From assembly GCF_038003085.1 (NCBI RefSeq), contig NZ_JBBOOM010000001.1, positions 2,790,001 through 2,854,000 of the forward strand: a stretch of 64,000 bases of DNA. Direction: 5' to 3'. This DNA is from Psychrobacillus sp. FSL K6-2836 (lineage in GTDB: Bacteria; Bacillota; Bacilli; Bacillales_A; Planococcaceae). Under the pieces are notes generated by a model that had not been told where the DNA came from, did no database searches, and saw only the letters and a program-made list of their open reading frames with translations. This document shows, piece after piece, positions 7,518 through 62,329 of this stretch. How positions within the stretch are numbered: the first letter of the stretch is position 1; every line of letters starts with the position of its first letter. The translations under genes and the position numbers were made by a program.

Positions 7518-8678
7518 ATGAAAGTAGAGTCGAAAATTGCGGGAGTAATACTTTCTATTTTTGCCTTAATTGGAATAGTGTTCTTTGTATTCATTGGTTT
7601 GTTTTTCGTACTTATAATGGGCAAAATAGATTATATTGCACTACTTATAACTTGTGGAGTCGTGCTATATATATTGTTTGTGTTTAATATATTTCATTTT
7701 TTTCAAACGAAGCAGCGGAAAATTATTTTTGGAAGTATCGCAGGAGCTGCAATACTAATCAGTGCGATTGCCCCATTAAAAGATGTGTATACTCAATTAA
7801 TACCAACAGTAGATGCTGAAGTGGATATAGGACAGTATGAACCCTTTTCAAAATTTGGAAATGTCACCACGTTAAACGAGAAAGCTACGCTTCATCTCAC
7901 AGATGACTTACCAAAATTGGATGGTGCAACTGCGCTTTATCCGTTATACGCAGCAATTGTAGAAGCAACATATCCAGAAAAATCGTATCCATTTTACGAC
8001 AGTGAAGTAATGGTAAGTACTACACCATATGCATATGAGAATCTCTTTAGTGGAAAGGTTGATATGATTTTCGCTGCTGCTCCTTCGGTATCCCAAAAGA
8101 AAACCGCAGAGCAAAAAGGATTAAAGCTTAAAATGACACCTATTGGTCGAGAAGCATTTGTCTTTTTCGTCAATCAAAAAAATCCAATTGATAATCTTAC
8201 AGTAGATCAAATTACGGATGTATATATGGGGAAAGTGACCAATTGGGAGCAGCTTGGGGGCAAAGATGATTCAATTCGTGCTTTCCAACGACCGGAAGAC
8301 AGTGGGTCCCAATCTGCGCTTCAATCACTTATGAAGGGAATGCCACTTATGAAGCCACCTTCAGAGGATATCGTTACAGGAATGGGAGGAATTATAAATG
8401 AGGTATCTCAATATAGAAATTATAAAAATGCAATTGGTTTTACATTCCGCTTTTATTCCACAGAAATGGTCGGCAATGATCAGATCAAGTTATTAGATAT
8501 AAATGGAGTAGCACCGACGAAAGAAAATATTCAAGCAGATATCTATCCTATAACATCTGAATTGTATATTGTGACCGCTGGAACGGACAATCCAAACGTG
8601 GAACCATTAATCGAGTGGATATTATCGGAACAAGGGCAGGCACTTGTGGAAAAAGTAGGCTATGTACCAATAAAGTGA
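7518..8678 (+). CDS. Membrane-anchored PstS-like substrate-binding protein
   Basis: 386 residues. Three hydrophobic segments fill the first ~90 residues (around 8-32, 36-58, 68-86), then an extracytoplasmic type II periplasmic-binding fold as in phosphate-binding PstS. Readable PstS-like motifs include LDGATALYPLYAAIVEATYP, the GSQSAL loop that grips phosphate in PstS, and a C-terminal domain-crossing segment. Ordinary PstS proteins are lipoproteins with one anchor, so the three-helix anchor is unusual. No pstCAB genes are adjacent. With the upstream Xre regulator it may form a small sensing pair; phosphate as ligand is only family inference. Confidence 0.78.
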   Translation: MKVESKIAGVILSIFALIGIVFFVFIGLFFVLIMGKIDYIALLITCGVVLYILFVFNIFHFFQTKQRKIIFGSIAGAAILISAIAPLKDVYTQLIPTVDAEVDIGQYEPFSKFGNVTTLNEKATLHLTDDLPKLDGATALYPLYAAIVEATYPEKSYPFYDSEVMVSTTPYAYENLFSGKVDMIFAAAPSVSQKKTAEQKGLKLKMTPIGREAFVFFVNQKNPIDNLTVDQITDVYMGKVTNWEQLGGKDDSIRAFQRPEDSGSQSALQSLMKGMPLMKPPSEDIVTGMGGIINEVSQYRNYKNAIGFTFRFYSTEMVGNDQIKLLDINGVAPTKENIQADIYPITSELYIVTAGTDNPNVEPLIEWILSEQGQALVEKVGYVPIK

Positions 8679-23931: not shown

Positions 23932-24056
23932 AGGATAATAATTAAATTGCTTAGATAGAAACAATGAATTCACATATTACAAAAGGTAATCGTGAGTCTT
24001 CGGTAGCTTTTTGTAATATGTGAATTTTTTATTCACCATAAATGGAGGTTTTTTAC
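23932..24056 (+). promoter_or_regulatory. structured 5' leader of cold-shock gene, copy B
   Basis: Duplicate of 20019-20143 at a constant offset of 3913. A perfect 18-bp stem joins 23967-23984 to 24009-24026 (copy A has one mismatch in the same stem), followed by a T-run to 24030 and then ATTCAC, which can compete for the GTGAAT of the stem. TATAGT at 23925-23930 is a likely -10; no good -35 is seen. Confidence 0.65.
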
Positions 24057-24257
24057 ATGACACAAGGTACAGTAAAATGGTTTAACGCAGAAAAAGGTTT
24101 TGGATTTATCGAGGTTGAAGGCGGAAACGACGTATTCGCTCATTTCTCAGCAATCCAAGGCGAAGGATTCAAATCTCTTGACGAAGGTCAAAAAGTTGAA
24201 TTTGACGTTGAAGATGGTCAACGTGGACCACAAGCAGTTAACATTGTAAAACTTTAA
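24057..24257 (+). CDS. Cold-shock protein, copy B
   Basis: 66-residue cold-shock domain protein, amino-acid identical to copy A at 20144-20344, with the same RNP1 (KGFGFIEV) and RNP2 (VFAHFSAI). Start follows GGAGG in the same spacing. A handful of synonymous differences (GGT/GGC, GTA/GTT, ATC/ATT) show recent duplication or gene conversion. Ends in its own imperfect terminator (about 24287-24320). Confidence 0.97.
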
Positions 24258-24286
24258 TTCTTCGGGATTAATTAAACATAGTTAGC

Positions 24287-24320
24287 AAAAGAGGCATCCT
24301 TTCTGAGGGTGTCTTTTTTT
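24287..24320 (+). terminator. terminator after csp copy B
   Basis: AAGAGGCATCCT and AGGGTGTCTTTTTTT form an imperfect hairpin followed by T residues. Different in sequence from the copy A terminator. Confidence 0.7.
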
Positions 24321-47914: not shown

Positions 47915-48448
47915 TTATCTTTTCACTTCATAATGCAACTCTGCAAATTGATTAAAACGATTGATGCTCTTTAAGGTAAGCTCTAATTCAAAATCAACTT
48001 CTTTAAACAAAGGAATTCCTTTTCCGATTAAAACAGGAGACACTGTAATAATTAGTTCATCCACTAATTTTTCCTTGATAAATGAGTGGATTAAATCTCC
48101 ACCGCCCATTACCCAAATATCTTTACCTTCTTTGTTTTTCAAATGATTTGTAAAGTCGACTACATCTCCACTGAAGAATTTGACGTTTTCATTATCCTCA
48201 CTGACGGTTCTGGAGAAAACATAGCATTCCTTACCCTCATAGGGGAAGCTTTCCAATTCTTGTTCTAGAAGCCAGTCGTAAGTGCGTCTGCCCATAATTA
48301 CCGTATCTACTGTTTCGTAGAAGTCAGAATAGCCATTATCTCCTTCACCATCTACCTTAAACAACCACTCCAAAGAGTCGTCTTTGGTCGCAATATACCC
48401 ATCTAAGCTTGTCGCAATGAACAATACAATTTTTCTTTGATTCATCAT
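47915..48448 (-). CDS. Dihydrofolate reductase / RibD C-terminal-like protein
   Basis: 177 residues. Opening IVLFIATSLDGYIATKDDSLEWL, then VIMGRRTYDWL and DIWVMGGGDLIHSF match the DHFR-like RibD_C family (YyaP/YwjB type), a Rossmann-like NADPH fold whose stand-alone members have no settled reaction. Often annotated as dihydrofolate reductase family; it is unlikely to be the housekeeping DHFR. Monocistronic. Confidence 0.88.
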   Translation of the reverse strand: MMNQRKIVLFIATSLDGYIATKDDSLEWLFKVDGEGDNGYSDFYETVDTVIMGRRTYDWLLEQELESFPYEGKECYVFSRTVSEDNENVKFFSGDVVDFTNHLKNKEGKDIWVMGGGDLIHSFIKEKLVDELIITVSPVLIGKGIPLFKEVDFELELTLKSINRFNQFAELHYEVKR

Positions 48449-48496
48449 AAGCCTCCTATTGTTAATTTAATATGTAAATTTCTAGAGAAACCAGCA

Positions 48497-49129
48497 TTAA
48501 ACAGGTCGTACATATGATAAGAGAATGTCTTTTAATACACGTCGCTGAATTAGTGGATCTATATCTTCCTCAAGAAAAGAAATAGGTGCTTTCAATACGA
48601 CATTATTTACGAAAGTCCCAAAAGTGTTAATGATAGTTATGAGGGTTTCTTTGATGGATAGATCCGTTCGAATGGACCCATCAGTTTTACCATCTTCAAT
48701 AATTGGAATAAGGCTATTACTAATTTGTTTTTGGATTTCTATATAGTCTTCAATGTCTGGTAATGGCTCTTTTGTAAAAGAAGCATAGCTTTCAAAAGCT
48801 TCCCTAAACTTGGAAGAGTTACTCTCGTCTTGATCTTCGAGCAAGTAATTTAACACATCCTCTAACCGTTCATATGCCGTCTTAGGTGAGGATGCAATCT
48901 TTGTGAATGCAGGAAGTATTCTTTCAAGGTTTTGAATAGCAACAGCAACGATAAGTTTATCTTTTTTAGGGAAATACCGAAAAACTGTAGCGATTCCGAC
49001 TTCTGCTTCTTTAGCTACATCTTGCATTTGGACGCTATCTAATCCAAGTTCAAGAAATAAGCGCTCAGCTGCAGATACGATATGTTGATAACGTGTAGAT
49101 TTATTTTGTTCCCGAACACTTAGTGGCAT
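48497..49129 (-). CDS. TetR-family transcriptional regulator
   Basis: 210 residues. N-terminal HTH with AAERLFLELGLDSVQMQDVA and recognition segment VGIATVFRYFPKKDKL; variable all-helical C-terminus for ligand and dimerisation. Divergent from the SDR gene at 49244; a 7-3-7 palindrome at 49203-49219 is its probable operator. Ligand unknown. Confidence 0.9.
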   Translation of the reverse strand: MPLSVREQNKSTRYQHIVSAAERLFLELGLDSVQMQDVAKEAEVGIATVFRYFPKKDKLIVAVAIQNLERILPAFTKIASSPKTAYERLEDVLNYLLEDQDESNSSKFREAFESYASFTKEPLPDIEDYIEIQKQISNSLIPIIEDGKTDGSIRTDLSIKETLITIINTFGTFVNNVVLKAPISFLEEDIDPLIQRRVLKDILLSYVRPV

Positions 49130-49202
49130 TGGATAACCTCCTTTATTTTTTTATTATACATCGTTTAAGTTTGCATCTGTCCATTTTGAGGAGTAAAATA
49201 AG

Positions 49203-49219
49203 TGATAGTTAGACTATCA
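49203..49219. promoter_or_regulatory. TetR-type palindromic operator
   Basis: TGATAGT-TAG-ACTATCA, a perfect 7-base inverted repeat, lies 25 bases before the SDR start and 74 bases before the divergent tetR start. Confidence 0.7.
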
Positions 49220-49243
49220 AAATATAATCATGAGGTGAAAAAA

Positions 49244-49993
49244 ATGAGATTAACAGGCAAAGTAGCGGTAATTACAGGAGCAGGAAGCGGAATGGGAGAA
49301 GCGGAAGCACTTATGTTTGCAAGAGAGGGTGCTAAAGTTGTCGTAACAGACATCAATTTCGAAGCAACAGAAGCTGTAGTCGCACAAATTAAAGAAGCTG
49401 GTGGAGAAGCGATTGCTATCAAACATAATGTTGCTTCAAAAGAAGATTGGGAAAACGTTTATAACAAAACAGTAGAAGCATTTGGCAAATTAGACATTTT
49501 GGTAAACAATGCAGGAATTTCATTGGCTAAGGATTTCATGGAACAGACAGAAGAAGACTGGGCGCGCACATATGCCATCAACATCAACGGTACGATGCTT
49601 GGTATGCAACTTGCGATTCCTTTGATGGAGAAAAATGAAGGTGGTTCAATCGTGAACATTTCTTCCATCTCTGCATTAACAGGTATGGCTGGAGCAGGAG
49701 CTTACACAGCTTCAAAAGGTGCTGTACGTTCAATCACAAAAGCAGCAGCAGTTGACTACGGTAAGAAAAATATCCGTGTTAACTCCGTACACCCAGGCTA
49801 TATCGTGACACCAATGAGTGCACCACATATGGAACATCCGGATTACAAGAATTATTTCTTGTCTCAAATTGCCCTACCGAATCTTGGGAAAGCCGAAGAA
49901 GTGGCTTCAGCGGTATTGTTCTTAGCATCAGACGAAGCAAGCCATATCACTGGTATTGAGTTACCGGTGGATGGTGGTGTTACAGCGAAATAA
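49244..49993 (+). CDS. Short-chain dehydrogenase/reductase (SDR)
   Basis: 249-residue classical SDR: TGAGSGMG cofactor loop, NNAG, catalytic Ser in NISSISALTG, Y-x3-K as YTASKGA, and C-terminal DGGVTAK. The start at 49244 follows GAGGTG. Single-gene unit, probably repressed by the divergent TetR protein. Family members reduce ketones or oxidise alcohols with NAD(P); no finer call is possible. Ends at hairpin 50034-50077. Confidence 0.9.
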   Translation: MRLTGKVAVITGAGSGMGEAEALMFAREGAKVVVTDINFEATEAVVAQIKEAGGEAIAIKHNVASKEDWENVYNKTVEAFGKLDILVNNAGISLAKDFMEQTEEDWARTYAININGTMLGMQLAIPLMEKNEGGSIVNISSISALTGMAGAGAYTASKGAVRSITKAAAVDYGKKNIRVNSVHPGYIVTPMSAPHMEHPDYKNYFLSQIALPNLGKAEEVASAVLFLASDEASHITGIELPVDGGVTAK

Positions 49994-50033
49994 GAGAAAA
50001 GAGCTTCTGAACGTAGAAGTTATATAGTTAATG

Positions 50034-50078
50034 AAGAGTTTGTAGAAGTGATGATGTCACTTTTGCAAACTCTTTTTT
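50034..50078 (+). terminator. terminator after SDR gene
   Basis: AAGAGTTTG and CAAACTCTT with an inner GAAGTGA/TCACTTT stem, then six T. Confidence 0.85.
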
Positions 50079-50193
50079 GTGAAGTAGAAAATGTGAAAAT
50101 GGAATTTTTATTAAAAAGTTCGAATATGGTGTATATAACGAAGAGTGGACAAGAATTCTATTATTGCTGCTCTTATGATAAGGGGGCTAGTTG

Positions 50194-51027
50194 ATGACAG
50201 TGTCGGAAAGAAAGTATGTAGAAGTAGATCCTGGTGTAGAATTATATGTTCAAGATGTAGGAAGTGGAGATCCTATTGTTTTCATCCCTGGCTTTACATT
50301 TACAACCGAGGTGTTTACCCATCAAGTCGAACATTTCGCCAAAACAAATCGAGTAATTGTTATCGATCCAAGAAGTCATGGTCGTTCATCGATTACGTTA
50401 CAAGGAAATGATTATGTAACACACGGAACGGATTTGGCAAAAGTACTCAATTCATTACAAATAAAAAACGTTACACTAGCAGGATGGTCGTTCGGGTGCT
50501 TAACAATTTGGGAGTATCTTAAACAGAACGGCTATGACAATGTAAAATCACTTATTTTCATTGACATGTCACCAAAGGCATTGTCGACAAACGATGTAGA
50601 AGATTGGGTGGAAGGTCCCCTTAATGATATTGGGGCGATCTATAACACTTATTTGCGTAATCCGGCAGGTCAAAGGGAATTTATGAAGGCGTATACAACA
50701 AGCGTCATGGTGCAACGTGATGTAAGCGAGGACGAGTTGAATTGGCTAGTAGAGCAATCCCTAAAAACCCCCTATTATATTGCTGCGAATTTATTTGCTT
50801 CGGGCATGTTCTCTGATTATCGTGAAGAAGCGAGAACAGCTAGTGAAACAGTACCCACATTGACAATTGTTGCAGAACATTGGTCAGCTCCAGCAATTGA
50901 ATTTACGCAAAATGTTTCTCCCAAATCCTCTATAGAAGTACTCGGCGGACACTTGATGTTCTGGGAACATAGTAAGCGATTTAACGAGCTTGTAAATCGA
51001 TTTTTGTCCGAAAAAATATCCCTTTAA
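50194..51027 (+). CDS. Alpha/beta-hydrolase fold protein
   Basis: 277 residues. Nucleophile elbow GWSFGC, oxyanion region PGFTFTTEVF, RSHGRS loop and C-terminal His in GGHLMFWEHS complete the fold. AAGGGGG favours the ATG at 50194. Reaction unknown; esterase, haloperoxidase-like or C-C hydrolase are all possible. The last 167 bases (50857-51023) recur almost exactly at 53297-53463, carrying the catalytic His region. That repeat brackets the DUF262 gene. Confidence 0.88.
   Translation: MTVSERKYVEVDPGVELYVQDVGSGDPIVFIPGFTFTTEVFTHQVEHFAKTNRVIVIDPRSHGRSSITLQGNDYVTHGTDLAKVLNSLQIKNVTLAGWSFGCLTIWEYLKQNGYDNVKSLIFIDMSPKALSTNDVEDWVEGPLNDIGAIYNTYLRNPAGQREFMKAYTTSVMVQRDVSEDELNWLVEQSLKTPYYIAANLFASGMFSDYREEARTASETVPTLTIVAEHWSAPAIEFTQNVSPKSSIEVLGGHLMFWEHSKRFNELVNRFLSEKISL
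50857..51023 (+). repeat. 167-bp direct repeat, left copy
   Basis: Identical to 53297-53463 except for two substitutions (CTCC/CTAC and CGGC/CGGA), with no indels at offset 2440. It is the 3' end of the hydrolase gene, up to but not including its stop codon. Confidence 0.95.
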
Positions 51028-51420
51028 TCGAAAAGATTTAGTTTATTTACTACAATTTAATATAGAAAATACAACTCTACCTTCTGCTCTCTGAGGGGGC
51101 TCGTATGGACACGCTTTTCTTGGTTGGAGTAGCCGCCTGAAACGAAGACCAAGTAAATGTGTACAAAACCTACAGATTACATCTAACATGCCTTTCGATT
51201 AAATATAGGGAGGTTGAATAGCCGTAATGTGTCTATTGTAGTAGAAACTCTAATAGAAATGCAGACTTAATATGTGATTCTGAGTCTGCTTTTACAACAT
51301 CCTCTAAAGTGTTGATTATTAATACATTACTTCAAATATTAATGATTGTTTAGCAGATTTAGCTTGATATACTGAGATTACAGTAATAGCGAAAAAAACC
51401 TGGAAAGGGAGTGTGAACTG
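51028..51420. other. intergenic region before DUF262 gene
   Basis: No gene. A degraded GC-rich patch at about 51088-51135 (GAGGGGGCTCG, GGACACGCTTTTC, GGAGTAGCCGCC) resembles the composite repeat tail. ATAGAAATGCAGACTT at ~51251 with AGTCTGC at ~51281 resembles the tctA terminator and could be a relict terminator. Confidence 0.45.
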
Positions 51421-53085
51421 ATGAAGAACCAGAAAGAAACTATTAGGAGAATGGTTGGTTATTTAAATAATGAAGAAAAGGATGGTGGCTTCTGGCTACC
51501 CAATATCCAAAGACCATTTGTTTGGAAAGAGGAGCAAACAGAGCGACTCTTCGATTCAATACTTAGAGAATATCCCATTAGTACATTGCTTGTGTGGAAG
51601 ACTAAGAGCAGTATTAAACGTAGAAAATTCATCCAAAACTATAAAAAGAAACAGAAGTTGTCGGATTTTTACGTATTAGAGGATTCAAAAATAAAGATGT
51701 TAGTACTAGATGGGCAACAACGCTTACAAAGTTTGTTCATTGGCTTAAAAGGCAGTTACGAAGGAAAAGAATTATATTTGGATATTTTAAGTGGCGATTT
51801 AACACAACCTGATGATATTAGATACCAATTCAAGTTTATGGAAAAAGAAAAGGTTAAATTTCCTTGGATAAAGTTCAAAGATATCGTGTTTAGTAATGGT
51901 GAATATGATGAAATTAGCGAAAGACTAATTGATAAATCTGGTACTGATTTAACTAAGGAACAGCAAAGACGCGTAAGAAGAAATGTTTCTAAAATAATAA
52001 GGATTTTTACTTCAGATGAAACATTGATATATCAAGAATTAGATAGTGTCGATAATGAAGAAGCATATACTGAAGATGATGTTGTCGAAATTTTTATAAG
52101 AGCTAATTCTGGAGGAACCGTATTGGGGAAATCAGACTTATTGTTCTCTCTATTGTCTGCTAGCTGGTCAGAATCTGACGAGAAGATGGAAGAATTACTT
52201 GAAGATCTCAATAACACTGGTTATAAATTCAATCGGGATTTTGTGCTAAAAGCATGTTTATCACTGCTTGATAAAGGTGCAGCCTATAATGTTTCAAAAT
52301 TTAGAGACGAAACGACAAGAGAAGCTATTTCAAATAAGTGGGATGATATTGCCAATGCTATCAAAGATGTAAAAGACTTTTTATATGGTAAAACGTTTTT
52401 AAGGTCAGATAAAGCATTAACATCTTATCTTGGGTTAATACCAGTAATTTATTTTAGATATCATTTTAAAAACCAGTGGAATAGCATTAAAAAGCTCGAT
52501 GAATACATATTAAGAACATTATTAACTGGAGCTTTTAGCGGTAGTCCTGATACAGTAATAGATCGTTGTATTGATGCGATAAAAAAATCACGAGATTTTA
52601 ATGTAGGTGATCTATTTGACACTATTCGAAGAAGCGGCCGAAACTTACAAATTGATGAAGAAACAATTCTTGAACTGGCTTATGGATCTAAAAACATTCA
52701 TTTAATTTTTAACCTTTGGTATAAGGATTTTTCCTATCATCCTGCATTTGTAAATAATCAACCACAAGTTGATCATATCTTCCCACAGAGTGCGTTAAAA
52801 ACAATAAAAAATATAGATCCGAATTCAGGAAGGAAGGTTTTAGCATATAGAGCAGAAGATCGAGATCAAATTGCTAATTGTATGTTATTAACGCAGCAAG
52901 AGAATGGATCAGGTGGTAAGAGTGCTACTCTTCCAGAAGAATGGTTTGAAGGTAAGTCAGATAATTATTTGAAAATGCATTTAATACCTAGAGATAAAAA
53001 CCTTTGGAAGTTGGAAAACTATCCTGAATTTCTAGAGGAAAGAAAAAAGCTTATATTGAATAATTTTAAGGATTTAATCTACTAA
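51421..53085 (+). CDS. DUF262 (GmrS-like) and HNH-type protein, putative defence nuclease
   Basis: 554 residues. N-terminal DUF262 fold: NIQRPFVWKEEQTERLFDSI, then the ParB/Srx-like catalytic loop VLDGQQRLQSL (DGQQR 97-101), which in GmrSD, BrxU and SspE-type enzymes senses nucleotide and modified DNA. A helical middle leads to QPQVDHIFPQSAL (D451-H452), a His-Cys-box-like HNH motif as in the DUF1524 half of GmrD. So both halves of a GmrSD-like type IV restriction factor appear fused in one chain. No methyltransferase or helicase is adjacent. GGGAGTG precedes the ATG. Bracketed by the 167-bp repeat. Confidence 0.85.
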   Translation: MKNQKETIRRMVGYLNNEEKDGGFWLPNIQRPFVWKEEQTERLFDSILREYPISTLLVWKTKSSIKRRKFIQNYKKKQKLSDFYVLEDSKIKMLVLDGQQRLQSLFIGLKGSYEGKELYLDILSGDLTQPDDIRYQFKFMEKEKVKFPWIKFKDIVFSNGEYDEISERLIDKSGTDLTKEQQRRVRRNVSKIIRIFTSDETLIYQELDSVDNEEAYTEDDVVEIFIRANSGGTVLGKSDLLFSLLSASWSESDEKMEELLEDLNNTGYKFNRDFVLKACLSLLDKGAAYNVSKFRDETTREAISNKWDDIANAIKDVKDFLYGKTFLRSDKALTSYLGLIPVIYFRYHFKNQWNSIKKLDEYILRTLLTGAFSGSPDTVIDRCIDAIKKSRDFNVGDLFDTIRRSGRNLQIDEETILELAYGSKNIHLIFNLWYKDFSYHPAFVNNQPQVDHIFPQSALKTIKNIDPNSGRKVLAYRAEDRDQIANCMLLTQQENGSGGKSATLPEEWFEGKSDNYLKMHLIPRDKNLWKLENYPEFLEERKKLILNNFKDLIY

Positions 53086-53108
53086 TTTATTGTAGAGGAA
53101 TTATAGCA

Positions 53109-53207
53109 ATGCAATATACATTTGTAGAAGAAATTTTCCCTCTCATGAAAGACGAATTTAACCGAAAGATGGCAGAAAAGATTTCTTACTTTATAGATGA
53201 AAAATAG
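53109..53207 (+). CDS. Short ORF after DUF262 gene (32 codons), possible remnant
   Basis: MQYTFVEEIFPLMKDEFN plus RKMAEKISYFIDEK, with AGAGGAA eight bases before the ATG, 23 bases after the DUF262 stop. The amphipathic, charged make-up looks protein-like. It may be a tiny partner or the first codons of a gene cut off by the inverted repeat that starts at 53211. No homologue recognised. Confidence 0.4.
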   Translation: MQYTFVEEIFPLMKDEFNRKMAEKISYFIDEK

Positions 53208-53210
53208 CGA

Positions 53211-53285
53211 CCCTGTGTCAGAAACATTCACGTTAATTCGAACAAACGTAAATGTTATGATTTTCATGTTTGTTTCTGACACAGG
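53211..53285. repeat. long inverted repeat (MITE- or REP-like) at insertion edge
   Basis: CCCTGTGTCAGAAACA (53211-53226) is repeated in inverse as TGTTTCTGACACAGGG (53270-53285), with further partial pairing of CGTTAATT/AACGTAAATG inside. I associate CCCTGTGTCAGAAAC-type ends with dispersed elements of Bacillales, but cannot name the family. It separates the DUF262 unit from the right repeat copy by 11 bases. Confidence 0.7.
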
Positions 53286-53296
53286 GAACAAAATTA

Positions 53297-53467
53297 ACAT
53301 TGACAATTGTTGCAGAACATTGGTCAGCTACAGCAATTGAATTTACGCAAAATGTTTCTCCCAAATCCTCTATAGAAGTACTCGGAGGACACTTGATGTT
53401 CTGGGAACATAGTAAGCGATTTAACGAGCTTGTAAATCGATTTTTGTCCGAAAAAATATCCCTCTGA
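53297..53467 (+). pseudogene. Duplicated 3' fragment of alpha/beta-hydrolase gene (right direct repeat)
   Basis: Encodes the last ~56 residues of the hydrolase at 50194-51027 (TIVAEHWSATAIEFTQNV, GGHLMFWEHSKRF, then VNRFLSEKIS) with one amino-acid change, and stops at TGA. Lacks the nucleophile half and any start of its own. It is most simply the original 3' end or a copy made when the DUF262 segment was inserted. Confidence 0.92.
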
Positions 53468-53721
53468 GACATCCACGAAATAATAGTTTTCTCACGGGGG
53501 TGAAAATGATTTTGGCATTATAGACACATCACTTTCTTTTGAACTTATTGCTCAAAATCACAAGATAGATAAAGATAAACTAGACAGCCATCTGCTTATG
53601 CGGAAAGGCTGTATTTTTTGTGGAATTAATGCTCGAATCATTAAGTTTTTAAAGAATAATGTTAGAAGTGAATTTTTTAGGGAAAAGAAATATTGAAAAG
53701 AATATTAGGAAGGTGAATGTG

Positions 53722-53880
53722 ATGAAAAAAGAGTCGAATCATGAAAAGGAATCCTCAAATCAAAAAGATCTAACTGTTGAGCAAGGAAAGCCAAATGAGT
53801 TAAGTGACCAACAGAAAGAAGAACTTCAAGTGAAAGATGGCCAAAATGATCATCATGTGGATGAACGCGGTGGAAGATAA
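53722..53880 (+). CDS. Small hydrophilic protein
   Basis: 52 residues, almost entirely polar (MKKESNHEKESSNQKDL, then QKEELQVKDGQNDHHV), no Cys, no hydrophobic core, likely disordered. AGGAAGGTG precedes the ATG at 53722. Composition recalls small acid-tolerant or spore/stress hydrophilins, but no family is recognised. A terminator-like GGTATAGACAATACC and T-run (about 53913-53950) follows. Confidence 0.55.
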   Translation: MKKESNHEKESSNQKDLTVEQGKPNELSDQQKEELQVKDGQNDHHVDERGGR

Positions 53881-54005
53881 TAGGATTCAATAAAACACTT
53901 TTCGTTAAAGAAGGTATAGACAATACCTATAAACGGAAGGTGTTTTTTTCTATGGTGCAATACTCAGATATCCAGTCGAAGTGAAAATGAATGTAATAGA
54001 AAAAT

Positions 54006-54030
54006 AGGAGAGTACTAGCACTCTCCTGTT
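54006..54030. terminator. terminator, mainly for NRDE gene
   Basis: AGGAGAGT (54006-54013) pairs with ACTCTCCT (54020-54027). Confidence 0.75.
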
Positions 54031-54043
54031 TATAAAGGTAGTC

Positions 54044-54814
54044 CTATTTTTCACCAATCTTGAACGCAAAACGATTTTCTACTTGGAACTCTCCATTCTG
54101 AAAAGTTCGCTCCACAAATGTAACATGATTTTCTTTATCGATTAGTAAGACGGTGGATGAACGAGTGCCATAGTTAGAGATCTTAATAAACAAAGGAGAC
54201 AACAATCTCTCCATCTCTAATCCGACTCCGGTTTCAGGTAGTTCCATATCATCCGCCATGGTTTGATCTGAGATGATATCAAATAGAGAATCTATAGCTG
54301 CTTCACCAGGATAGGATTGAACATACTCACCTAAATACTTTTTGCCCTTTGCAACCTTAGGCCAAGGTGTATTCAGTGTATGATTGCTCAAACTATGTGT
54401 GCCGGGAGTAATCTCATTCATTTCATTTAATACATTATTGTAGTGGAACAATTGATTTCCATCACCCACAATGACATTATAACCACCAAAATTTCCTTTA
54501 TTGTTTGATAGTGTTTCAATAAAATCAACTGGAGCATCACCACTGGACAAAAAATCACGCACGATATCCCCACGAGAATAACTTCCCCGTGCTTCATTAG
54601 GATCCCGATAGTTCGTCAACGCGGCAAAACGCCCATCTCTCGTCACACCAAGCCAAGTCCCCATATGCACTAAATCACGCCCACCCAAAATATTCGGACA
54701 ATCCTTCCAAAATCCAGCAGCCGCAGTAGGTCGCTCATAAAACTCATCCCGATTTGCCACCACAATCAGTTTATAAAACGGATGATCTCGAAAATGAAAA
54801 TTTACTAAACACAT
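54044..54814 (-). CDS. NRDE (TANGO2-family) protein
   Basis: 256 residues. Begins MCLVNFHFRDH and contains the family-defining VVANRDEFYERP near residue 20; later GTWLGVTRDGRFAALTNYR and HSLSNHTLNTPWPKVAKGK match TANGO2. The conserved Cys2 is the proposed nucleophile of an Ntn-like fold. GGAG supports 54814 rather than 54820. Biochemical role is unsettled (haem or lipid handling has been proposed for eukaryotic members). Confidence 0.9.
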   Translation of the reverse strand: MCLVNFHFRDHPFYKLIVVANRDEFYERPTAAAGFWKDCPNILGGRDLVHMGTWLGVTRDGRFAALTNYRDPNEARGSYSRGDIVRDFLSSGDAPVDFIETLSNNKGNFGGYNVIVGDGNQLFHYNNVLNEMNEITPGTHSLSNHTLNTPWPKVAKGKKYLGEYVQSYPGEAAIDSLFDIISDQTMADDMELPETGVGLEMERLLSPLFIKISNYGTRSSTVLLIDKENHVTFVERTFQNGEFQVENRFAFKIGEK

Positions 54815-55094
54815 TCCCATTACTCCTTTTACTAGTTTTTCACTAATATTATCCTAAAAAATAACGTAAAGCATTATTTTACTCTGAAGGATTAACTTTA
54901 CTAATCATGAGACATTTGATATAAGGTAAAAATATTCTTTAATATAGATGATTGGAACTATAGGTATTTTGCATAATAAAGAAGCTTTGTAAAGGCTGCG
55001 TTAGGTATAATTCAAAAGCAATTCTGAGTGGTGATGAAATGGTGTATCATACAGGCATACTATTTATTTCTGCAAAAGTACCTAATATTGCTTC

Positions 55095-55895
55095 TCATTC
55101 CTCATGTTCCAGATAGAATTCAAATAACGCTCGTTCGCAAATTTTTTCAAAAACGCCAACAAAATATCCTGGAAGATTGCGAACTTTTTTCTTTTTCATG
55201 GCGTGTAAAGAAATCGTTAGTGCTTGGTAACCAGTGTTTTCATAAAACTTCTGCTCTTGTGGGAACAACTGAACGCTACGATAAGTGAGGCTTCGATATA
55301 CCCCATACAAACGGCTTACCAGTTGCTGATCTTGTCCCGACGTAGCAAAAATAGCAGATTTGAATTGCTGATAGAATGTAGGCTCTTTTTTTTCGGAAAA
55401 GTTATCCACATAATTTTCTGAGCGGACTTTATCGTCAGAATACGTATTATGAAATAATTCTTTTTTAGAGATTAAAAAGATATCGGTTTCTTTTTGCGAA
55501 ATGATAGGCTCATCCCTTTGTATTTCTAGCTTTGCATCCTCTCCCCGAGCTGTCAAACTCGAGTGGTCATCAAAAGGTAAAATAACTATAATATTGGCAC
55601 CATACCCCTTGGAAACCTTGCGAATGGTCGGAACCTTTTTAATAATCGCTAGCTTTTCTAATTTACGTAAAGTTCTTCTAACAGTAGCCTCTGATTTATC
55701 TATCGCTTTACAAATGGATTCCACTTTCAAATGAGCTGCACCTGGAAACTTACATGCATATCGAGCTAACAAAGTGACCGCAACGCGATCTGTCTCATTC
55801 AACTCACCATTATGCTCCATTATGTGTTTTTGAACATGTATATCCATTTCTTGAACCGTCTTAAAAGATTGATAAGCCGTAAGATAATTAGTCAT
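55095..55895 (-). CDS. Replication-initiator-like HTH protein
   Basis: 266 residues. N-terminal winged HTH (LTAYQSFKTVQEMDIHVQKH, then SICKAIDKSEATVRRTLRKLEKL) followed by a charged linker and a C-terminal helical part (KFYENTGYQALTISLHAMKK, NLPGYFVGVFEKICERAL) resembling DnaD/plasmid-replication or conjugative-element helix-turn-helix proteins. Such orphans are common in Planococcaceae chromosomes. No plasmid origin or iterons are visible nearby. Could be a mobile-element relic or a chromosomal regulator. Confidence 0.7.
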   Translation of the reverse strand: MTNYLTAYQSFKTVQEMDIHVQKHIMEHNGELNETDRVAVTLLARYACKFPGAAHLKVESICKAIDKSEATVRRTLRKLEKLAIIKKVPTIRKVSKGYGANIIVILPFDDHSSLTARGEDAKLEIQRDEPIISQKETDIFLISKKELFHNTYSDDKVRSENYVDNFSEKKEPTFYQQFKSAIFATSGQDQQLVSRLYGVYRSLTYRSVQLFPQEQKFYENTGYQALTISLHAMKKKKVRNLPGYFVGVFEKICERALFEFYLEHEE

Positions 55896-56255
55896 CTCTT
55901 CTTTCCTCCAATGCTGCTAATGATAAGTCGCTGTCATTAACTAGATAGGAGGGTTTTTGGGGAAAGGATACATCTATTGTTGGAAAATTTATCTGAAAAC
56001 GCAATTTAGTTCACTAACCCATATTAAAAGAGCTCACTCTGAACATAAATTAATGAAAAACTAATTATAAATACCTTAATGAAGCTACCGAGGATACATT
56101 TTCGGCAGCTTTTTATTTTATCTCTTATAAAGAAAGTCTGATAAAATAGTTAAATATTGTGATAATATTAAGGTAATTGGAATGGCGGATACTAGTGTTC
56201 TTTCAAATTGAAGGAAACTAGACTAGAAATATAGTTATATTGAGGAGAGATTAAA
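55896..56255. other. intergenic region before NERD gene
   Basis: AT-rich. An imperfect hairpin GAAGCTACCGA/TTCGGCAGCTTTTT at 56080-56113 looks like a terminator without an obvious upstream gene on this strand. No gene seen. Confidence 0.5.
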
Positions 56256-57317
56256 GTGACAGGATTTGCTAAAAAGTCCTTTTTAGAAAGAATGAAATTA
56301 GCATTAAAGGATAAAGAAGAACTACGAGTACCTGTACTTATCAAAGAGGGTACTACTGCGCAAAAAAAAATAGATAAAATGCAGAGTGATTTAGAAAAAG
56401 AAAAGTTATCGGAAACTCAAAAAGACTTACTAAGTAAAATTAAAATTCATGAACTAGGATTATACGGTGAAAAAAGTGTTCAATTTGAGCTAGTAAACGC
56501 ATTTATTCCTATTCATGTTTTGCATGATCTTCATTTGCGACATGATGAATGGAAAGCCCAAATTGATTTTGTTGTTATAACTCGAAAATTTATACTCGTT
56601 ATCGAAGTGAAAAACTACTACGGAAATATTCATGTAACAGAGCAAGGGGATTTTATACGGAACGTCATGAAAGGTAAAAAAGTAGTTTTTCAAGAAGGAT
56701 TCTACAGTCCAATACGCCAGATAGAAAGACAGACAGAAGTATTACGAAAGTTGTTGCAAGAGAACGGAATAGTAGGGAATAAAACACCTATTAAACAAGT
56801 AGTTGTTTTTACGAATAATAGAACGATACTAGACTTGAAAAAAGCAAAAGAAGATATACAAGATAGAATTGTACGTGTAGATGGATTAGTCGGATACATA
56901 TCAAAGGAGTTAAAAAAATCTTCTCCTGTTCAAATTTTAGATAACCGTATGTTGGATATAAGTAGTTTTCTAATGGACTCTCATATAGAAGATGAAATAG
57001 AAAAAACAGAGGATACAGTAGAATTGAAACTATTAGGTGAAACAGTAGAGGCTATGGCAAATCCAAAAGAAGAACAGTCTGCAACTGTAGCAGCAGGATT
57101 GGAAGAGGCTTTAAGAAATTTTAGAAAAGATAGAGCAGCAGCTTTAGGTATGAAAGCATTTCATATTTTTTCTAATCAGACTCTAGACGAAATTGTTTCA
57201 AAACAACCTACAACTTTGATAGAACTATCAACAATAAGAGGTATTGGTGAGAAAAAGATAGAGGAGTTTGGACTTGAAATAATTGAAATTATTCAAAGAC
57301 AAAGTTCAAAAGATTAA
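56256..57317 (+). CDS. NERD-domain nuclease-like protein with C-terminal HRDC domain
   Basis: 353 residues from a GTG after GAGGAGAG. NERD domain at ~75-200 with the PD-(D/E)XK core D104 (QIDFVVI) and E117-V-K119 (IEVKNYYG). A linker then leads to a C-terminal HRDC/helix-hairpin-helix module (~285-350, RAAALGMKAFHIFSNQTLDE, then LSTIRGIGEKKIEEFG) as in RecQ and UvrD-type helicases, indicating nucleic-acid binding. NERD proteins often sit with DNA-repair or defence genes. Biochemical role unproven. Confidence 0.88.
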   Translation: MTGFAKKSFLERMKLALKDKEELRVPVLIKEGTTAQKKIDKMQSDLEKEKLSETQKDLLSKIKIHELGLYGEKSVQFELVNAFIPIHVLHDLHLRHDEWKAQIDFVVITRKFILVIEVKNYYGNIHVTEQGDFIRNVMKGKKVVFQEGFYSPIRQIERQTEVLRKLLQENGIVGNKTPIKQVVVFTNNRTILDLKKAKEDIQDRIVRVDGLVGYISKELKKSSPVQILDNRMLDISSFLMDSHIEDEIEKTEDTVELKLLGETVEAMANPKEEQSATVAAGLEEALRNFRKDRAAALGMKAFHIFSNQTLDEIVSKQPTTLIELSTIRGIGEKKIEEFGLEIIEIIQRQSSKD

Positions 57318-57393
57318 AAGGTAAATGAGTTCCAGGCGGTAGAAAATAATGAGGCAGATATTTAAAAAAGAATACACGAAAGGGTGTGAGCGT

Positions 57394-57882
57394 TTGTTTA
57401 AAAAAATAATCAATCGTGTAGAAGATTTACTTAGCTCTTCTGCAGCAAGGAAGACCGCAGACAAACCCAAGCAAAAGTCGGTCATTTCTACCTATAAGGA
57501 ACAGACCGGAAATGGCCTGTTCTCCACCATGTTCAACAAAGGCAATTACGGTGAATTCTCATCCTACGGTAAATTGGCAAAATTGCCGGGGTACCATAAA
57601 GCATTGTTCAATATTTATATACCCAACGGCAAAGAACAAACGACTGAAATCGATTTGGTCTACCTTCATGAAACCGGCATCTACGTAATCGAGTCGAAAA
57701 ACTACAGCGGCTGGATTTTTGGGGATGAAAAGTCACAAAAGTGGATGCAAACCTTTCAGAATGGGCAGAAGTTTTCCTTTTACAATCCCATCAAACAAAA
57801 TCTAGGCCACATAAAGGCACTGAAAGCCCTGTTGCCATCTATTGAAACTGCGCAATTTACATTTCACTTGATGAGTTTATAA
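57394..57882 (+). pseudogene. Second NERD-domain gene, C-terminal truncation
   Basis: NERD core readable as FSSYGKLAKLPGYHKALFNI, EIDLVYLHETGIYVIESKNY (E-S-K) and SGWIFGDEKSQKWMQ, then YNPIKQNLGHIKAL. The frame ends with HLMSL shortly after, where relatives continue for 50-100 residues. An ATG at 57349 is also in frame, but TTG 57394 is spaced well from AGGGTG. The sequence looks richer in G and C than its NERD neighbour, so it was probably acquired separately. Truncated protein or relic. Confidence 0.72.
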
Positions 57883-57893
57883 TAATCTTTAAT

Positions 57894-57912
57894 AGTGTCA
57901 AAAAATGATACT
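57894..57912. promoter_or_regulatory. near-palindrome before WYL regulator gene
   Basis: AGTGTCA-AAAAA-TGATACT, seven-base arms with one G-T wobble, 15 bases before the regulator start. Candidate autoregulatory operator. Confidence 0.5.
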
Positions 57913-57927
57913 GTTTAGGAGGTCGAG

Positions 57928-58890
57928 ATGAAAAAAGTTGAACGGATTAATATCATCATGCGGTATATCAACAACCGATCCCGCTTTACAATTTCTGAGA
58001 TCATGCAAGAATTTAACATCTCTCGTTCAACCGCTATTAGAGATATCAGAGAAATTGAAGCAATGGGGATGCCACTTGTTGCTGAAGTTGGAAGGGATGG
58101 GGGCTATTTTGTCATGAACAATTCTGTCCTGCCCACTGTCCGCTTCACCGATAATGAGATTAAAGCTCTCTTTATTGCCTTTATGGCCACAAGAAATCAA
58201 CAACTCCCTTATCTAAAGAGCCGTCAGTCTTTAGCTGAAAAATTACTAGGCCTCATTTCAGAAAACCAGCAAGATGACCTCGTTCTTTTAAATCAAATCT
58301 TGCTTTTTGAAGGAACTAACCCTAATAATCCCGACCTACTTGATCTGTCAGACCTCCCCCATCCTATTTTAGAAAAACTTATCCAAATCCTTCTTTTGGA
58401 TCGCTATTTATGGATTACTATCGAAGAAGAGAAGATAGTAAAGACTTACCCAATTTATCTCTTGCACCTTTATCGTGAAAAAAGCCTTTGGCTGATTGAA
58501 GGATTTGACTTAAAGGAAGAGAATAGGGGGATTTTTCCTGTCGACAATCTCACCAATGTCGAACCATACCCTACGAAAAAAAGATTAAGTAAGAAAAATA
58601 TTTTAGAAAAACTAAGTAAGCAGGAAGAAGTGATCAACCTTGTCCTTGAACTTGGTCCAAAGGCAATTGCCCAGTTCAAAAAATACCATCCTATAAAAGT
58701 TTCAATTTCCTATACAAATCCTTACCAAACTACAGCCATTCTAAAGACTTTTATCAATGTTTATAATTCAGGAGAATTGGCCGAAATAACAAATTGGCTG
58801 CTTTTCCTAGGTGAGGATATCAAGGTCAGGGAAGTGCCAGAAGAAGTCTTAGAAGGTTTACATGAGAGAGTATGTTTATTCTTCCCTTAA
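57928..58890 (+). CDS. HTH-WYL domain transcriptional regulator (YafY family)
   Basis: 320 residues. N-terminal DeoR-like HTH (YINNRSRFTISEIMQEFNIS, then RSTAIRDIREIEAMGMPLV) and a central region ending in a WYL-type domain (~140-215) and WCX C-terminus. TTAGGAGGTCGAG is a strong site. WYL proteins bind ligands, including nucleic acids in some defence-associated members, and often control nearby stress or phage-defence genes. Target genes may be the adjacent NERD genes; the link is inference. Confidence 0.87.
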   Translation: MKKVERINIIMRYINNRSRFTISEIMQEFNISRSTAIRDIREIEAMGMPLVAEVGRDGGYFVMNNSVLPTVRFTDNEIKALFIAFMATRNQQLPYLKSRQSLAEKLLGLISENQQDDLVLLNQILLFEGTNPNNPDLLDLSDLPHPILEKLIQILLLDRYLWITIEEEKIVKTYPIYLLHLYREKSLWLIEGFDLKEENRGIFPVDNLTNVEPYPTKKRLSKKNILEKLSKQEEVINLVLELGPKAIAQFKKYHPIKVSISYTNPYQTTAILKTFINVYNSGELAEITNWLLFLGEDIKVREVPEEVLEGLHERVCLFFP

Positions 58891-59436
58891 GCAATGCGGT
58901 TAAAAGCCAAATAATTTTGAGCTTGGCCAATTGCAGTGCATCTCTATTTTGCACACATAGGGTATATACTTCTGATTAGTGTAAATGCTTTGAGAAGTTA
59001 ATAGCATTTTTTCAGTACTGTTCTTTATTGAATTTCTAGTAAATTCATTTTAACAAAAAAGGTAAAAACCTCATTTAGATGCGTTACGGTGAACCCTATC
59101 ATAAGTAAGTGATATTTTTACTTTATATTTATTAAATTAGATATGCATACAAAACTAAAGCCGATTTTCTGAGCAAACAGAAAATCGGCTTTTACAAATC
59201 GCTTACGGATTTTTTCGCAGTACTTTAAATATTTTCTAAGATTTTATATTGAACTTGTGTAATTTAATCAGGAAAAACAGAATCGTCTATTCGGCATAAT
59301 TTATGTACATAGTAAAACACTAAGAAAGTCTTAAGAATTGGTGTGTGTGTTTGTTAAGATTTAAATAGTATCATATTCTTATACGAATCCTCAGGGGTGA
59401 TCACATAAGCCAAAAGAGATGGAGGAATGAATGTAG
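58891..59436. other. intergenic region with terminator-like hairpin and response-regulator half-sites
   Basis: No gene seen. AAAGCCGATTTTCTG (59158-59172) pairs with CAGAAAATCGGCTTT (59178-59192), nearly the same as the hairpin at 37079. Near the 3' end, CTAAGAA (59320-59326), TTAAGAA (59331-59337) and TTAAGAT (59354-59360) are direct repeats of the type bound by OmpR-class regulators. Confidence 0.55.
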
Positions 59437-60123
59437 TTGAACATTTTGATTTGTGATGATGATAAAGAAATCGTTAGGGCGATTAGCGTTTATTTAGAAA
59501 ATGAGGGATATCAAGTATTCAAAGCTTACGATGGGATAGAGGCAATCGATCTTATTCGAGATCATGTAATTCACCTAATTATTATGGATATAATGATGCC
59601 AAAAATGGATGGGATTACGGCAACGATGAAGATTCGACAAGATAATATGATTCCGTTAATTATACTTTCTGCCAAGTCTGAGGATCATGACAAAATACTC
59701 GGGTTAAATATCGGAGCAGATGATTATATGGGCAAGCCGTTTAATCCATTAGAACTTGTGGCTAGAGTGAAATCACAGCTAAGAAGGTATACGACATTTG
59801 GGAGTCTTGAGGTGAGTGGTTATGTACTTCAAACGGGCGGGCTCATGATTGATGATGAACAGAAGATCATTACTGTTGATAATCAAGAGGTTTATTTGAC
59901 ACCAGTGCAGTATAAAATTTTAAAGCTTCTCACAGCAAATGCTGGGAGAGTATTCACAATTGAAGAGATTTATGAAAAGGTATGGAATGAAAGGGCCATT
60001 AATCCAGAGAATACGGTTTCGGTTCATATTCGAAAGATTCGAGAAAAAATTGAAATAAATCCGAAAGAGCCGAAGTATTTAAAAGTTGTATGGGGAGTTG
60101 GGTATAAAGTTGAGAAATATTAG
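59437..60123 (+). CDS. OmpR/VanR-family response regulator
   Basis: 228 residues. Receiver domain with D7-D8-D9, phospho-acceptor D51 (LIIMDIMMPKMDG), and GKPFNPLEL; C-terminal winged helix with LTPVQYKILKLL, VWNERAINPENTVSVHIRKI and GVGYK. Start is TTG 11 bases after GGAGG. Overlaps the kinase gene by 14 bases. The direct repeats TTAAGAA/T upstream suggest autoregulation. Confidence 0.92.
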   Translation: MNILICDDDKEIVRAISVYLENEGYQVFKAYDGIEAIDLIRDHVIHLIIMDIMMPKMDGITATMKIRQDNMIPLIILSAKSEDHDKILGLNIGADDYMGKPFNPLELVARVKSQLRRYTTFGSLEVSGYVLQTGGLMIDDEQKIITVDNQEVYLTPVQYKILKLLTANAGRVFTIEEIYEKVWNERAINPENTVSVHIRKIREKIEINPKEPKYLKVVWGVGYKVEKY

Positions 60124-62161
60124 TCATGCAATCATTACGAAAGTGATTGTGTTTTTGATCGCCGTCGTTTGTTTAACTGGTACGACGAAGGCAATTATCA
60201 ACATGGAATTTAATGAGGTTCATCTTAGTAGTATAAATCAAGATAATTATTTTGAAAGCCGAGCATTCGCTGATGAAAGTTACAGCATTATTGCCTCCTT
60301 AGCGCAATTAATCGGAAAATATAAAAGTGAAGAACATATTTTAAGTGGTAAGACACTAACTGAAGAAGATGATAGAGAAATTAATGAAAATTTATATAAT
60401 GATTTCCGGTATTCATACAGATATAATCCGAATTTGAGTGAAGTGGAAAATGAGCGCATATATCAAGAAGAATATGCAGATAACATAAATCTTAAAAAAG
60501 CCGAAAGAATGAGTGAGCAGGTAAGAGAATTTTATCGGTTACTCGGAACACTAGAAGCACATGAAGGAATCACATATTATGCGAGTGATGGTGAACATGT
60601 ATTCTCTAATAATGAACTAAATAAGAAAGAGCAATTTGAATCATATGATGCATATATGCTATTCGAGGATTATCAACAAAAGTTTTACCCAAATGAAGTG
60701 AAAGAAAGTCAATACCTTAATTACTTTACAAGCAATGTTGAACAGTTGAATCCACAAACAGACGTCATTTATATAGCGTTTCCAGAATCTTTCTTACAAC
60801 AAAAAATAGAGGAATGGGAAAAAGACAAACAGATTGCCAAACGTTATTTTTATGAATTCATTGTATTTCTAGCAGGATTTATTTTATCTTTTGTTTATTT
60901 GATTATTGTTATTGGAAGAACCTCATTTAAAGATAAAGAGATTCATTTTCATGTCGTTGACAAACTATATAATGATCTCAAAATTGTGATAGCCGTTTGT
61001 TTACCAGCGGTGTGGATAGCGGTGATGCTTGAAGTGTTCTATGATATATACATGCTTCTCACGGCACCTTTTTTTATCATTGTTTTACTAATGATTTTAT
61101 CGCTCGTAAAGCATATCAAAAATAGAACATTACTTCAGCATACACTCATCTATCAAATTCTCAAAAAGATTTTTATTTTGGTAAAAAGTGTATTTGATAG
61201 TGGCAGTATGGGTGTGAAAATCGTACTGCTTGTCATTGGCTATCCTTTAGTAGTTGTGGCAACGTTTTTCATGTTTCCCATTACCATGGGTCTAGCTGCT
61301 TGGTTTGCGATGAAAAAGGTGAAGTCGTTTAACCGCATTAAAGAGGGCGTAGAGCAAATTAAGAATGGAGATCTTCATCATCGAATTGAAGTAGACGGAA
61401 AAGGGGAGATTAGCCGGCTTGCAGTGAATATTAATAGTATTACTGAGGGGTTAAAAAAGTCGGTGGATAGTGAGATTAAGAGCGACCGTTTAAAAACAGA
61501 GCTCATTACGAATGTTTCGCATGATATTAGAACACCTTTAACGTCAATCATTACGTATGTCGATTTATTAAAAATAGAAAACGACCCTGAAATAATTGCT
61601 GAATATGTAGACGTGTTAGATCAAAAATCGAAAAGACTTAAGCTCTTAACGGATGATTTATTTGAAGCGGCTAAAGCGTCAAGTGGAAGTATGCCTGTTC
61701 AGTTAGAACGGATTGACATCGTATCATTACTAACGCAAGGAATAGGAGAAATGGGTGGAAAAATCGAAGCGTCGTCATTAGATTTTAAGTTAGCCTACCC
61801 AACAGAAAAGGTGTATGTAAAGGCTGATGGCAAACTCCTATGGCGCTCCATCGAAAACTTATTTTCAAATATTTTTAAATACGCACAGCCTGCATCAAGG
61901 GTATATATTGATGTTGAAGATTTAGGGAATGAAATACTCGTGACATTTAAAAATATCTCAGCATATGAATTAAATATTTCAGTCGATGAGCTAATGGAAC
62001 GCTTTAAACGAGGCGATGAATCTAGATCAAGTCAAGGTAGCGGATTAGGGTTGTCGATTGCTGAAAGCCTTATTCATATCCAGCATGGAAAGTTTTTAAT
62101 TCAAGTAGATGGTGATTTATTTAAGGCAATCATTTATTTACCGAAATTTCCAAATGAATAA
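60110..62161 (+). CDS. VanS-like sensor histidine kinase, multi-TM
   Basis: About 684 residues from a TTG at 60110 inside the regulator gene. TM1 ~10-28, extracytoplasmic region ~30-240 without a recognised domain, then a cluster of hydrophobic segments (~245-270, 285-335, 365-405), a HAMP-like coiled linker (~410-460), HisKA with NVSHDIRTPLTSIITYVDLL, and HATPase with ENLFSNIFKYAQP, SGLGLSIAESLI. Layout matches multi-TM kinases of the VanRS/YkoH group. No transporter or resistance gene is adjacent, so its output is unknown. Ends at terminator 62172-62203. Confidence 0.9.
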   Translation: MRNISHAIITKVIVFLIAVVCLTGTTKAIINMEFNEVHLSSINQDNYFESRAFADESYSIIASLAQLIGKYKSEEHILSGKTLTEEDDREINENLYNDFRYSYRYNPNLSEVENERIYQEEYADNINLKKAERMSEQVREFYRLLGTLEAHEGITYYASDGEHVFSNNELNKKEQFESYDAYMLFEDYQQKFYPNEVKESQYLNYFTSNVEQLNPQTDVIYIAFPESFLQQKIEEWEKDKQIAKRYFYEFIVFLAGFILSFVYLIIVIGRTSFKDKEIHFHVVDKLYNDLKIVIAVCLPAVWIAVMLEVFYDIYMLLTAPFFIIVLLMILSLVKHIKNRTLLQHTLIYQILKKIFILVKSVFDSGSMGVKIVLLVIGYPLVVVATFFMFPITMGLAAWFAMKKVKSFNRIKEGVEQIKNGDLHHRIEVDGKGEISRLAVNINSITEGLKKSVDSEIKSDRLKTELITNVSHDIRTPLTSIITYVDLLKIENDPEIIAEYVDVLDQKSKRLKLLTDDLFEAAKASSGSMPVQLERIDIVSLLTQGIGEMGGKIEASSLDFKLAYPTEKVYVKADGKLLWRSIENLFSNIFKYAQPASRVYIDVEDLGNEILVTFKNISAYELNISVDELMERFKRGDESRSSQGSGLGLSIAESLIHIQHGKFLIQVDGDLFKAIIYLPKFPNE

Positions 62162-62171
62162 TGTAGCGAAG

Positions 62172-62203
62172 GAATAGGATATGTGAGTATCCTATTCTTT
62201 TTC
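62172..62203 (+). terminator. terminator after two-component operon
   Basis: GAATAGGAT (62172-62180) pairs with ATCCTATTC (62189-62197), then five T. Confidence 0.88.
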
Positions 62204-62329
62204 TGTGTATAGAAAAAATTTCAACGTTTTTCAGGTTTAGAAAAACATGCTTATTCTAGAGAATTAGAGGATTGTGGAGCTTTTGTCTAACTGTAGACTT
62301 GAATAACATTTAACGTAATAAGCCGTAAC

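Follow-up and report, generated by a model that had tools for sequence, protein, structure and literature searches.

The window (the whole stretch of 64,000 nucleotides analysed here, from Psychrobacillus sp. FSL K6-2836, contig NZ_JBBOOM010000001.1) raises the question of how a single predicted restriction gene, coding for a DUF262-HNH protein of the GmrSD/BrxU-like kind, came to lie between two near-identical copies of the 3' end of an alpha/beta-hydrolase gene. Our best explanation, to which we assign a probability of roughly 0.66, is that a type IV restriction gene derived from a bacteriophage exclusion (BREX) operon, of type 3 and known from other Bacillales, inserted as an operon slice at the hydrolase 3' end, duplicating its last 167 bases. 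This explanation is built on directly observed elements, namely an empty site in relatives, the parent operon, the points at which that operon is truncated, the repeat, and an intact restriction gene. Comparison genomes are labelled G and retrieved loci L throughout.

Direct repeat and empty site

The following features bound the locus.

50191..51027, plus strand: intact alpha/beta-hydrolase gene, 278 amino acids, whose 3' end is repeat copy 1 (Abhydrolase_1, E = 3.8e-17; list of open reading frames, ORFs)
50857..51023, plus strand: direct repeat copy 1, the 3' end of the intact hydrolase (sequence comparison, genus search)
53297..53463, plus strand: direct repeat copy 2, the truncated native hydrolase 3' end, a headless fragment (junctions in G007, G006 and G004)
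53464..53875, plus strand: native downstream flank of the hydrolase, the empty-site flank (contiguous with the hydrolase in G007)

A search with the 171-base repeat region against 19 genus genomes, the host's own and 18 others, recovered hydrolase ends in 10 of them, with two copies in the own genome and one in each of the other nine (9/9), in agreement with an insertion. Relatives that lack the DUF262 gene yet keep both copies, which the sequence-only reading had named as a refutation, were thus not seen among these nine. In three of these nine relatives (G007, G006 and G004), the single hydrolase end is followed by the right flank of the window, indicating that copy 2 with its flank is the native end. 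The flank joins the hydrolase unbroken in G007 (89% over 53296-53875); G006 and G004 also have it behind the hydrolase, where the flank contains a gap of 100-200 bases. The locus is an insertion in which the hydrolase stays full length and its native 3' end is displaced rightward, and the 2440 bp of extra DNA are made up of the insert and a single repeat length.

The repeat copies match gaplessly at 165 of 167 bases, as the sequence-only reading had reported, with a start-to-start spacing of 2440 and mismatches at 50890/53330 (C/A) and 50946/53386 (C/A); copy 2 is recovered in the own-genome search at E = 4.9e-80. The repeat spans 55 full hydrolase codons and ends two bases into the last sense codon, with Leu-stop at both copies, copy 1 running on as CTT TAA and copy 2 as CTC TGA. 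It contains the motif GGHLMFW, and its description as the catalytic-His end of the hydrolase is plausible on our assumed assignment of that histidine. When the window was compared with itself with the low-complexity filter on, for repeats of 60 bp or more at 80% identity or above and E <= 1e-8, the one other direct repeat returned was an unrelated pair at 20001-20415/23914-24322. A stretch of 24 bases near the start of the 167-base repeat (50860-50883) had no match in viral contigs.

Each copy carries one derived base relative to the nine relatives. In the alignment, C at 50890 in copy 1 is seen in 0/9 (8 A, 1 G), and A at 53386 in copy 2 likewise in 0/9 (5 C, 2 T, 2 G). The closest copy of the repeat in another species has 92% identity, so the duplicate was not imported from any species sampled. 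Together with the private base in each copy, this makes both copies look like the gene of the own lineage, and indicates that the insertion event is not brand new. The joining of two alleles with homology extending past the repeat was considered and rejected, the anchored alignment of the sequences beyond the repeat end being no better than shuffles (matched by 102/200 and 107/200).

Gene content from the hydrolase to the MazG-like gene at 62330 (window 53876-62294) is strongly variable among relatives, and genes for TANGO2, a helix-turn-helix protein and a NERD-HRDC protein are present or absent by relative within this variable spot.

The insert and its parent operon

The insert contains the following features.

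51024..51380, plus strand: noncoding left arm, parts of which resemble noncoding sequence in other genomes of the host family (short matches, 72-93% identity over 27-111 bp, per-genome E of 1e-8 to 1e-3)
51368..51373, plus strand: possible -10 hexamer TATACT with TG one base upstream (suggested by its place within a stretch resembling the upstream region of a short-chain dehydrogenase, SDR, gene)
51381..53203, plus strand: BREX type 3 operon slice, from the last codon of a DrmD-like helicase to codon 32 of the gene after DUF262 (91.2% DNA identity to L044)
51421..53085, plus strand: intact DUF262-HNH (GmrSD/BrxU-like) gene, 554 amino acids (Pfam GmrSD_N and GmrSD_C, PADLOC HEC-05, PDB 7p9k, motifs)
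53109..53207, plus strand: 32-codon remnant of the 130-amino-acid gene that follows DUF262 in the BREX operon (by-eye comparison with L044-L047; start and stop codons checked)
53211..53286, no strand assigned: palindromic dispersed element, CCCTGTGTCAGAAACA ... TGTTTCTGACACAGGG (end-pattern scan, genus copies, fold)

Between the repeats lie the 554-amino-acid gene, the 32-codon ORF and the palindrome, which bears out the earlier description of a single GmrSD-like gene, a short ORF and an inverted repeat. All other ORFs have at most 79 amino acids, leaving no room for a recombinase or integrase, in keeping with the earlier remark that the insert is without an integrase. DNA similarity to L044, a locus of Rossellomorea vietnamensis, is confined to 51381-53203 within the 48000-58000 searched, its left limit being the last codon of the upstream helicase gene and its right limit codon 32 of the 130-amino-acid gene. 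The parent operon, read across L124 and L044 (identical over a 927-base overlap), runs in the order BrxF, BrxC, PglXI, PglZ (BREX-3 model), BrxA, DrmD-like helicase, DUF262, the 130-amino-acid gene, and PtuA- and PtuB-like genes, and its protein models identify it as BREX type 3 with accessory genes. The window shares with this operon the DUF262 gene and its flanks, 1.8 kb at 91% DNA identity, whereas its insert has none of the core genes: BrxF, BrxC, PglXI, PglZ and BrxA are all absent between the repeats, and none of the seven window proteins scanned is BREX core.

L045 and L046 have about 7 kb in common with L044, including upstream genes, at 75% DNA identity, and L047 has the helicase region in common with it at 69%; full protein-model annotation was made for L044, and L045, L046 and L047 were compared by DNA. 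In L047 (Halalkalibacter, 6001-7666) the homologue and parts of its BREX operon look frameshifted into several ORFs and are likely decaying.

State and predicted function of the DUF262-HNH gene

The protein joins an N-terminal DUF262 and a C-terminal HNH (DUF1524) domain in a single chain. Its best PADLOC family is HEC-05 (E = 7.6e-108), and residues 22-547 align with the DUF262 protein of PDB 7p9k (E = 1.8e-42), which we take to be BrxU of Escherichia fergusonii pEFER. The BrxU report names the motifs RLFDS, DGQQR and DHIYP (PMC8565348); the window protein has RLFDS at 42, DGQQR at 97 and DHIFP at 451, with Phe for Tyr. The two proteins are alike in this aligned region, in keeping RLFDS and DGQQR, and in being accessories of a BREX locus. 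They differ in that the window gene is solitary and outside a BREX operon, has a BREX type 3 parent, reads DHIFP for DHIYP, and is known from sequence.

Against L044, dN/dS (the ratio of nonsynonymous to synonymous substitution rates) is 0.078 as an average over both branches. With branches polarised by L045 and L046, and 43 of the 114 differing codons left out as unresolved, nonsynonymous codon changes number 12 on the window branch and 4 on the L044 branch, against 23 and 32 synonymous ones, respectively (Fisher p = 0.025). Judged by these substitutions, the gene is still constrained, with a constraint that is perhaps somewhat relaxed and less strict than inside the operon. By family membership, the DUF262 domain should bind nucleotide and the HNH domain should cut DNA containing modified cytosine. 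BrxU alone sufficed for phage defence (PMC8565348), so an orphan gene of this kind could work by itself.

Distribution of homologues

Searches of the other 18 genomes of the genus did not find the gene and gave one weak, different match, in G004 (37%, about 100 residues). Of the 261 family genomes, G028 has the top-scoring match apart from the gene itself, at 35% identity. Homologues with 85-94% amino acid identity (L044-L047) occur in Rossellomorea vietnamensis, Salirhabdus, Cytobacillus eiseniae and Halalkalibacter wakoensis, among the 10 loci returned by a pattern-based search. The sequence-only reading had named the same cassette at other loci with other target repeats as support for mobility. 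No second copy of the cassette was found at another locus, L044-L047 have no match to the hydrolase region, and L044 sits in its BREX operon. The L048 homologue (66% amino acid identity) sits outside BREX among apparent housekeeping genes, presumably for fatty-acid synthesis.

Carriage of the gene by phages or plasmids was rejected for want of a close homologue. Phages gave 7 records, all below 60% identity; plasmids gave 422 records by protein, the best at 63.5% in Nostoc, and one by DNA, the same Nostoc plasmid; a pattern-based search of viral contigs returned no DUF262-HNH homologue.

Two further homologues were observed in passing. In L051 (Piscibacillus, 5992-7634) the homologue is split into two ORFs and is likely decaying. 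In L049, from a gammaproteobacterial metagenome-assembled genome, the homologue (4610-6286) is flanked on one side by the intact 5' end of a large downstream gene and on the other by a fragment of it. The two copies (890-1098/6295-6503) are 93% identical over 209 bp, and this is perhaps another insertion with duplication.

The left arm and the palindrome

The left arm has matches at E <= 0.001 in 18 of 260 other genomes, with two candidates scored per genome. Its segment 51086-51195 is a dispersed repeat with matches in G011, G016 and further genera, and the motif at 51251-51267 recurs more weakly at several genus loci (E 0.004-0.6). No further copy of the left-arm repeat was found in the window at up to 3 mismatches, and a consensus scan of 50950-53700 gave no terminator in the arm. 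Segment 51306-51383 resembles the region upstream of the SDR gene in G003, where the counterpart of the -10-like hexamer is TATAAT, likewise with TG upstream. From this resemblance we infer that the DUF262 gene may have acquired a promoter of host type within the left arm.

The palindrome at the opposite end of the insert has 76 bp, 16 perfectly paired bases at its ends and a fold of -35 kcal/mol (z -6.9). Its 16-base end pattern has 27 matches in the own genome at no more than 1 mismatch, vs 0 for the reversed control, and copies occur in 15 of the 18 other genus genomes. Both ends read CCCTGTGTNAGAAACA, with 47 matches in 23 genus stretches of 17-20 kb, window included; these stretches partly overlap and at least one copy is counted twice. 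In the own genome, copies cluster at 1.2, 1.8-1.9, 3.08 and 3.46 Mb; the element may be a miniature inverted-repeat transposable element (MITE), a terminator or something else. A consistent target duplication around the palindrome copies listed was not seen by eye. Insertion of the cassette as a transposon or MITE is not supported, the palindrome being a whole element at the right end alone, the duplication measuring 167 bp, and terminal inverted repeats bounding the insert being absent.

We surveyed the association of palindrome and duplication in 33 genus stretches totalling 657 kb, some of which overlap and 20 of which had been picked for a palindrome copy. Of the 59 direct repeats, four (window, L072, L109 and L080) overlie the 3' end of a gene and begin or finish no more than 7 bp from its stop codon, and one covers a gene 5' end (L105). 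The L072 and L109 genes are DUF421-like and DUF4256-like, respectively, and the L080 repeat lies over a 118-amino-acid ORF. The layouts of L072 and L109 are unlike that of the window: the L072 fragment precedes the intact gene, and the gene that separates the two L109 copies adjoins the intact gene in G000 too. A repeat copy lies within 60 bp of a palindrome copy in at least 6 of the 23 stretches, window included, some of these being other intergenic repeats. The palindrome was rejected as the rule-like cause of the 167-bp duplication, since L072 and L109 do not repeat the window layout, while the proximity of the two was kept as an observation. Repeat coordinates on the plus strand of each locus are 2877-2996/8970-9090 in L072 and 9038-9268/10755-10986 in L109. 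Both loci are from G007, and in each the gene has a nearby headless 3'-end copy (90% identity), close to a palindrome copy.

Weighing the explanations

Under the explanation preferred here, the slice would have entered by illegitimate or one-sided-homology recombination, as an insertion with long target duplication, rather than by transposition or site-specific integration. The host side would have contributed the left arm and palindrome, in the same step or another. Transcription of the gene would start from a left-arm promoter, and its protein, like BrxU acting by itself, would cut phage DNA that carries modified cytosine. Several points weigh against this account. Neither a donor nor an intermediate was seen, so the recombination mechanism is one that we infer. 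A repeat end near the stop codon is expected from site-specific gene-end integration too. In the other six of the nine matching relatives the hydrolase lies in different surroundings, uninformative on the empty site, and the comparison genomes include no second strain of the host species. As for the promoter, the hexamer at 51368 is absent from the list of a consensus promoter scan, and the match behind it is one of 78 bp at 76% identity.

The preferred explanation includes, as a possible though distinctly less-than-even route, homology-facilitated illegitimate recombination after uptake of conspecific DNA in which the cassette already stood behind the donor hydrolase, with a homologous crossover in the hydrolase on one side and an illegitimate join on the other. 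This would yield exactly the layout seen, the hydrolase neighbourhood is variable in the genus, and such recombination has been described in three naturally competent species (PMC3240628); the downstream sequences of the two copies, however, have no similarity beyond the repeat, and the donor strain was not seen. A rival which we consider improbable, while giving it real weight, is a decayed integrative element: a larger island, perhaps a whole BREX island with an integrase, entered the hydrolase 3' end, the repeats are its left and right attachment sites (attL and attR), and deletions left just the DUF262 gene. An intact gene upstream, a displaced 3' end downstream and a repeat end near the stop are the layout of gene-end integration, and the truncated slice implies that deletion or breakage occurred at some time. 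The insert then resembles a cis-mobilizable element (CIME), having no internal recombinase and a repeat on either side at the end of a gene. It may differ from one in that, among the integrase matches listed, neither an integrase-bearing partner nor a common attachment site was found in the genus; the tyrosine integrase (PF00589) matches listed (own genome 5 of 10) all lie more than 60 kb from the hydrolase, and serine recombinases were not searched. Against such an element also stand the lack of room for a recombinase, the duplication of the hydrolase 3' end in 0/9 matching relatives, the repeat copies, which nearly match one another and reach no more than 92% identity with those of other species, unlike attachment sites from a sampled species, and the host-family matches of the left arm.

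A minimal defence cassette mobile by itself, as the sequence-only reading had suggested, is very improbable. Close homologues do occur in several other genera, and L048 among apparent housekeeping genes indicates that the gene moves as a single unit over evolution. The insert, however, is a BREX type 3 slice with a truncated operon neighbour, between a left arm with host-family matches and the palindrome; it has no recombinase room and no second cassette locus was found, and its closest homologues lack these repeats, one of them (L044) sitting inside a BREX operon. Nothing seen shows the cassette moving by itself, and a mobile cassette is not demonstrated. A misjoin in assembly, to which an insert bounded by a repeat might point, can be given hardly any weight, as the copies differ at two sites, their flanks differ, and the assembly has 5 contigs, of which the one containing the window measures 4.23 Mb. 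It is also highly doubtful, if a shade less so than self-mobility, that single type IV genes shed from BREX spread by a dedicated integrase-free route duplicating host 3' ends, with the palindrome helping to define one junction.

Comparison with known insertions and significance

We know of no explanation for the mechanism by which restriction genes insert with long target duplication. For restriction-modification (RM) genes, this mode is said to have been described by Nobusato et al. 2000 (Gene 259:99) and Furuta et al. 2010 (NAR 38:2428). It is reported to accompany RM genes frequently and to give long, variable duplications with all RM types (PMC1643837, PMC3031569), and a third report proposes it for one RM cluster of Helicobacter pylori (PMC4978471). 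The window locus is alike in its restriction gene, recognised by sequence, its 167-bp target duplication and the empty site in related genomes. It differs in that the inserted gene is an accessory of a BREX operon and came with a piece of the next gene, and in the palindrome, widespread in the genus, that lies at one junction. It is filed here as a further putative case of that mode. The proposal that integration had regenerated the target 3' end stands in part: an insertion occurred, as the empty site and the full-length hydrolase attest, but the likeness to integrative elements need not carry over: regeneration of a 3' end needs no integrase, and published insertions of restriction genes with long target duplication give such a layout.

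Elsewhere in the window, the 417-bp direct repeat at 20001-20415/23914-24322 (92%) has a second copy overlapping a cspA thermoregulator RNA match (23945-24320), and is probably a duplicated cold-shock leader.

The locus offers a well-resolved case of an accessory restriction gene that parted from a defence operon of many genes and has survived on its own, with the parent operon, the empty site and the junctions all readable. It adds a BREX-derived type IV example from the Bacillales to a known mode of restriction-gene insertion, and it cautions against taking repeats that restore the 3' end of a gene as sufficient proof of an integrative element.

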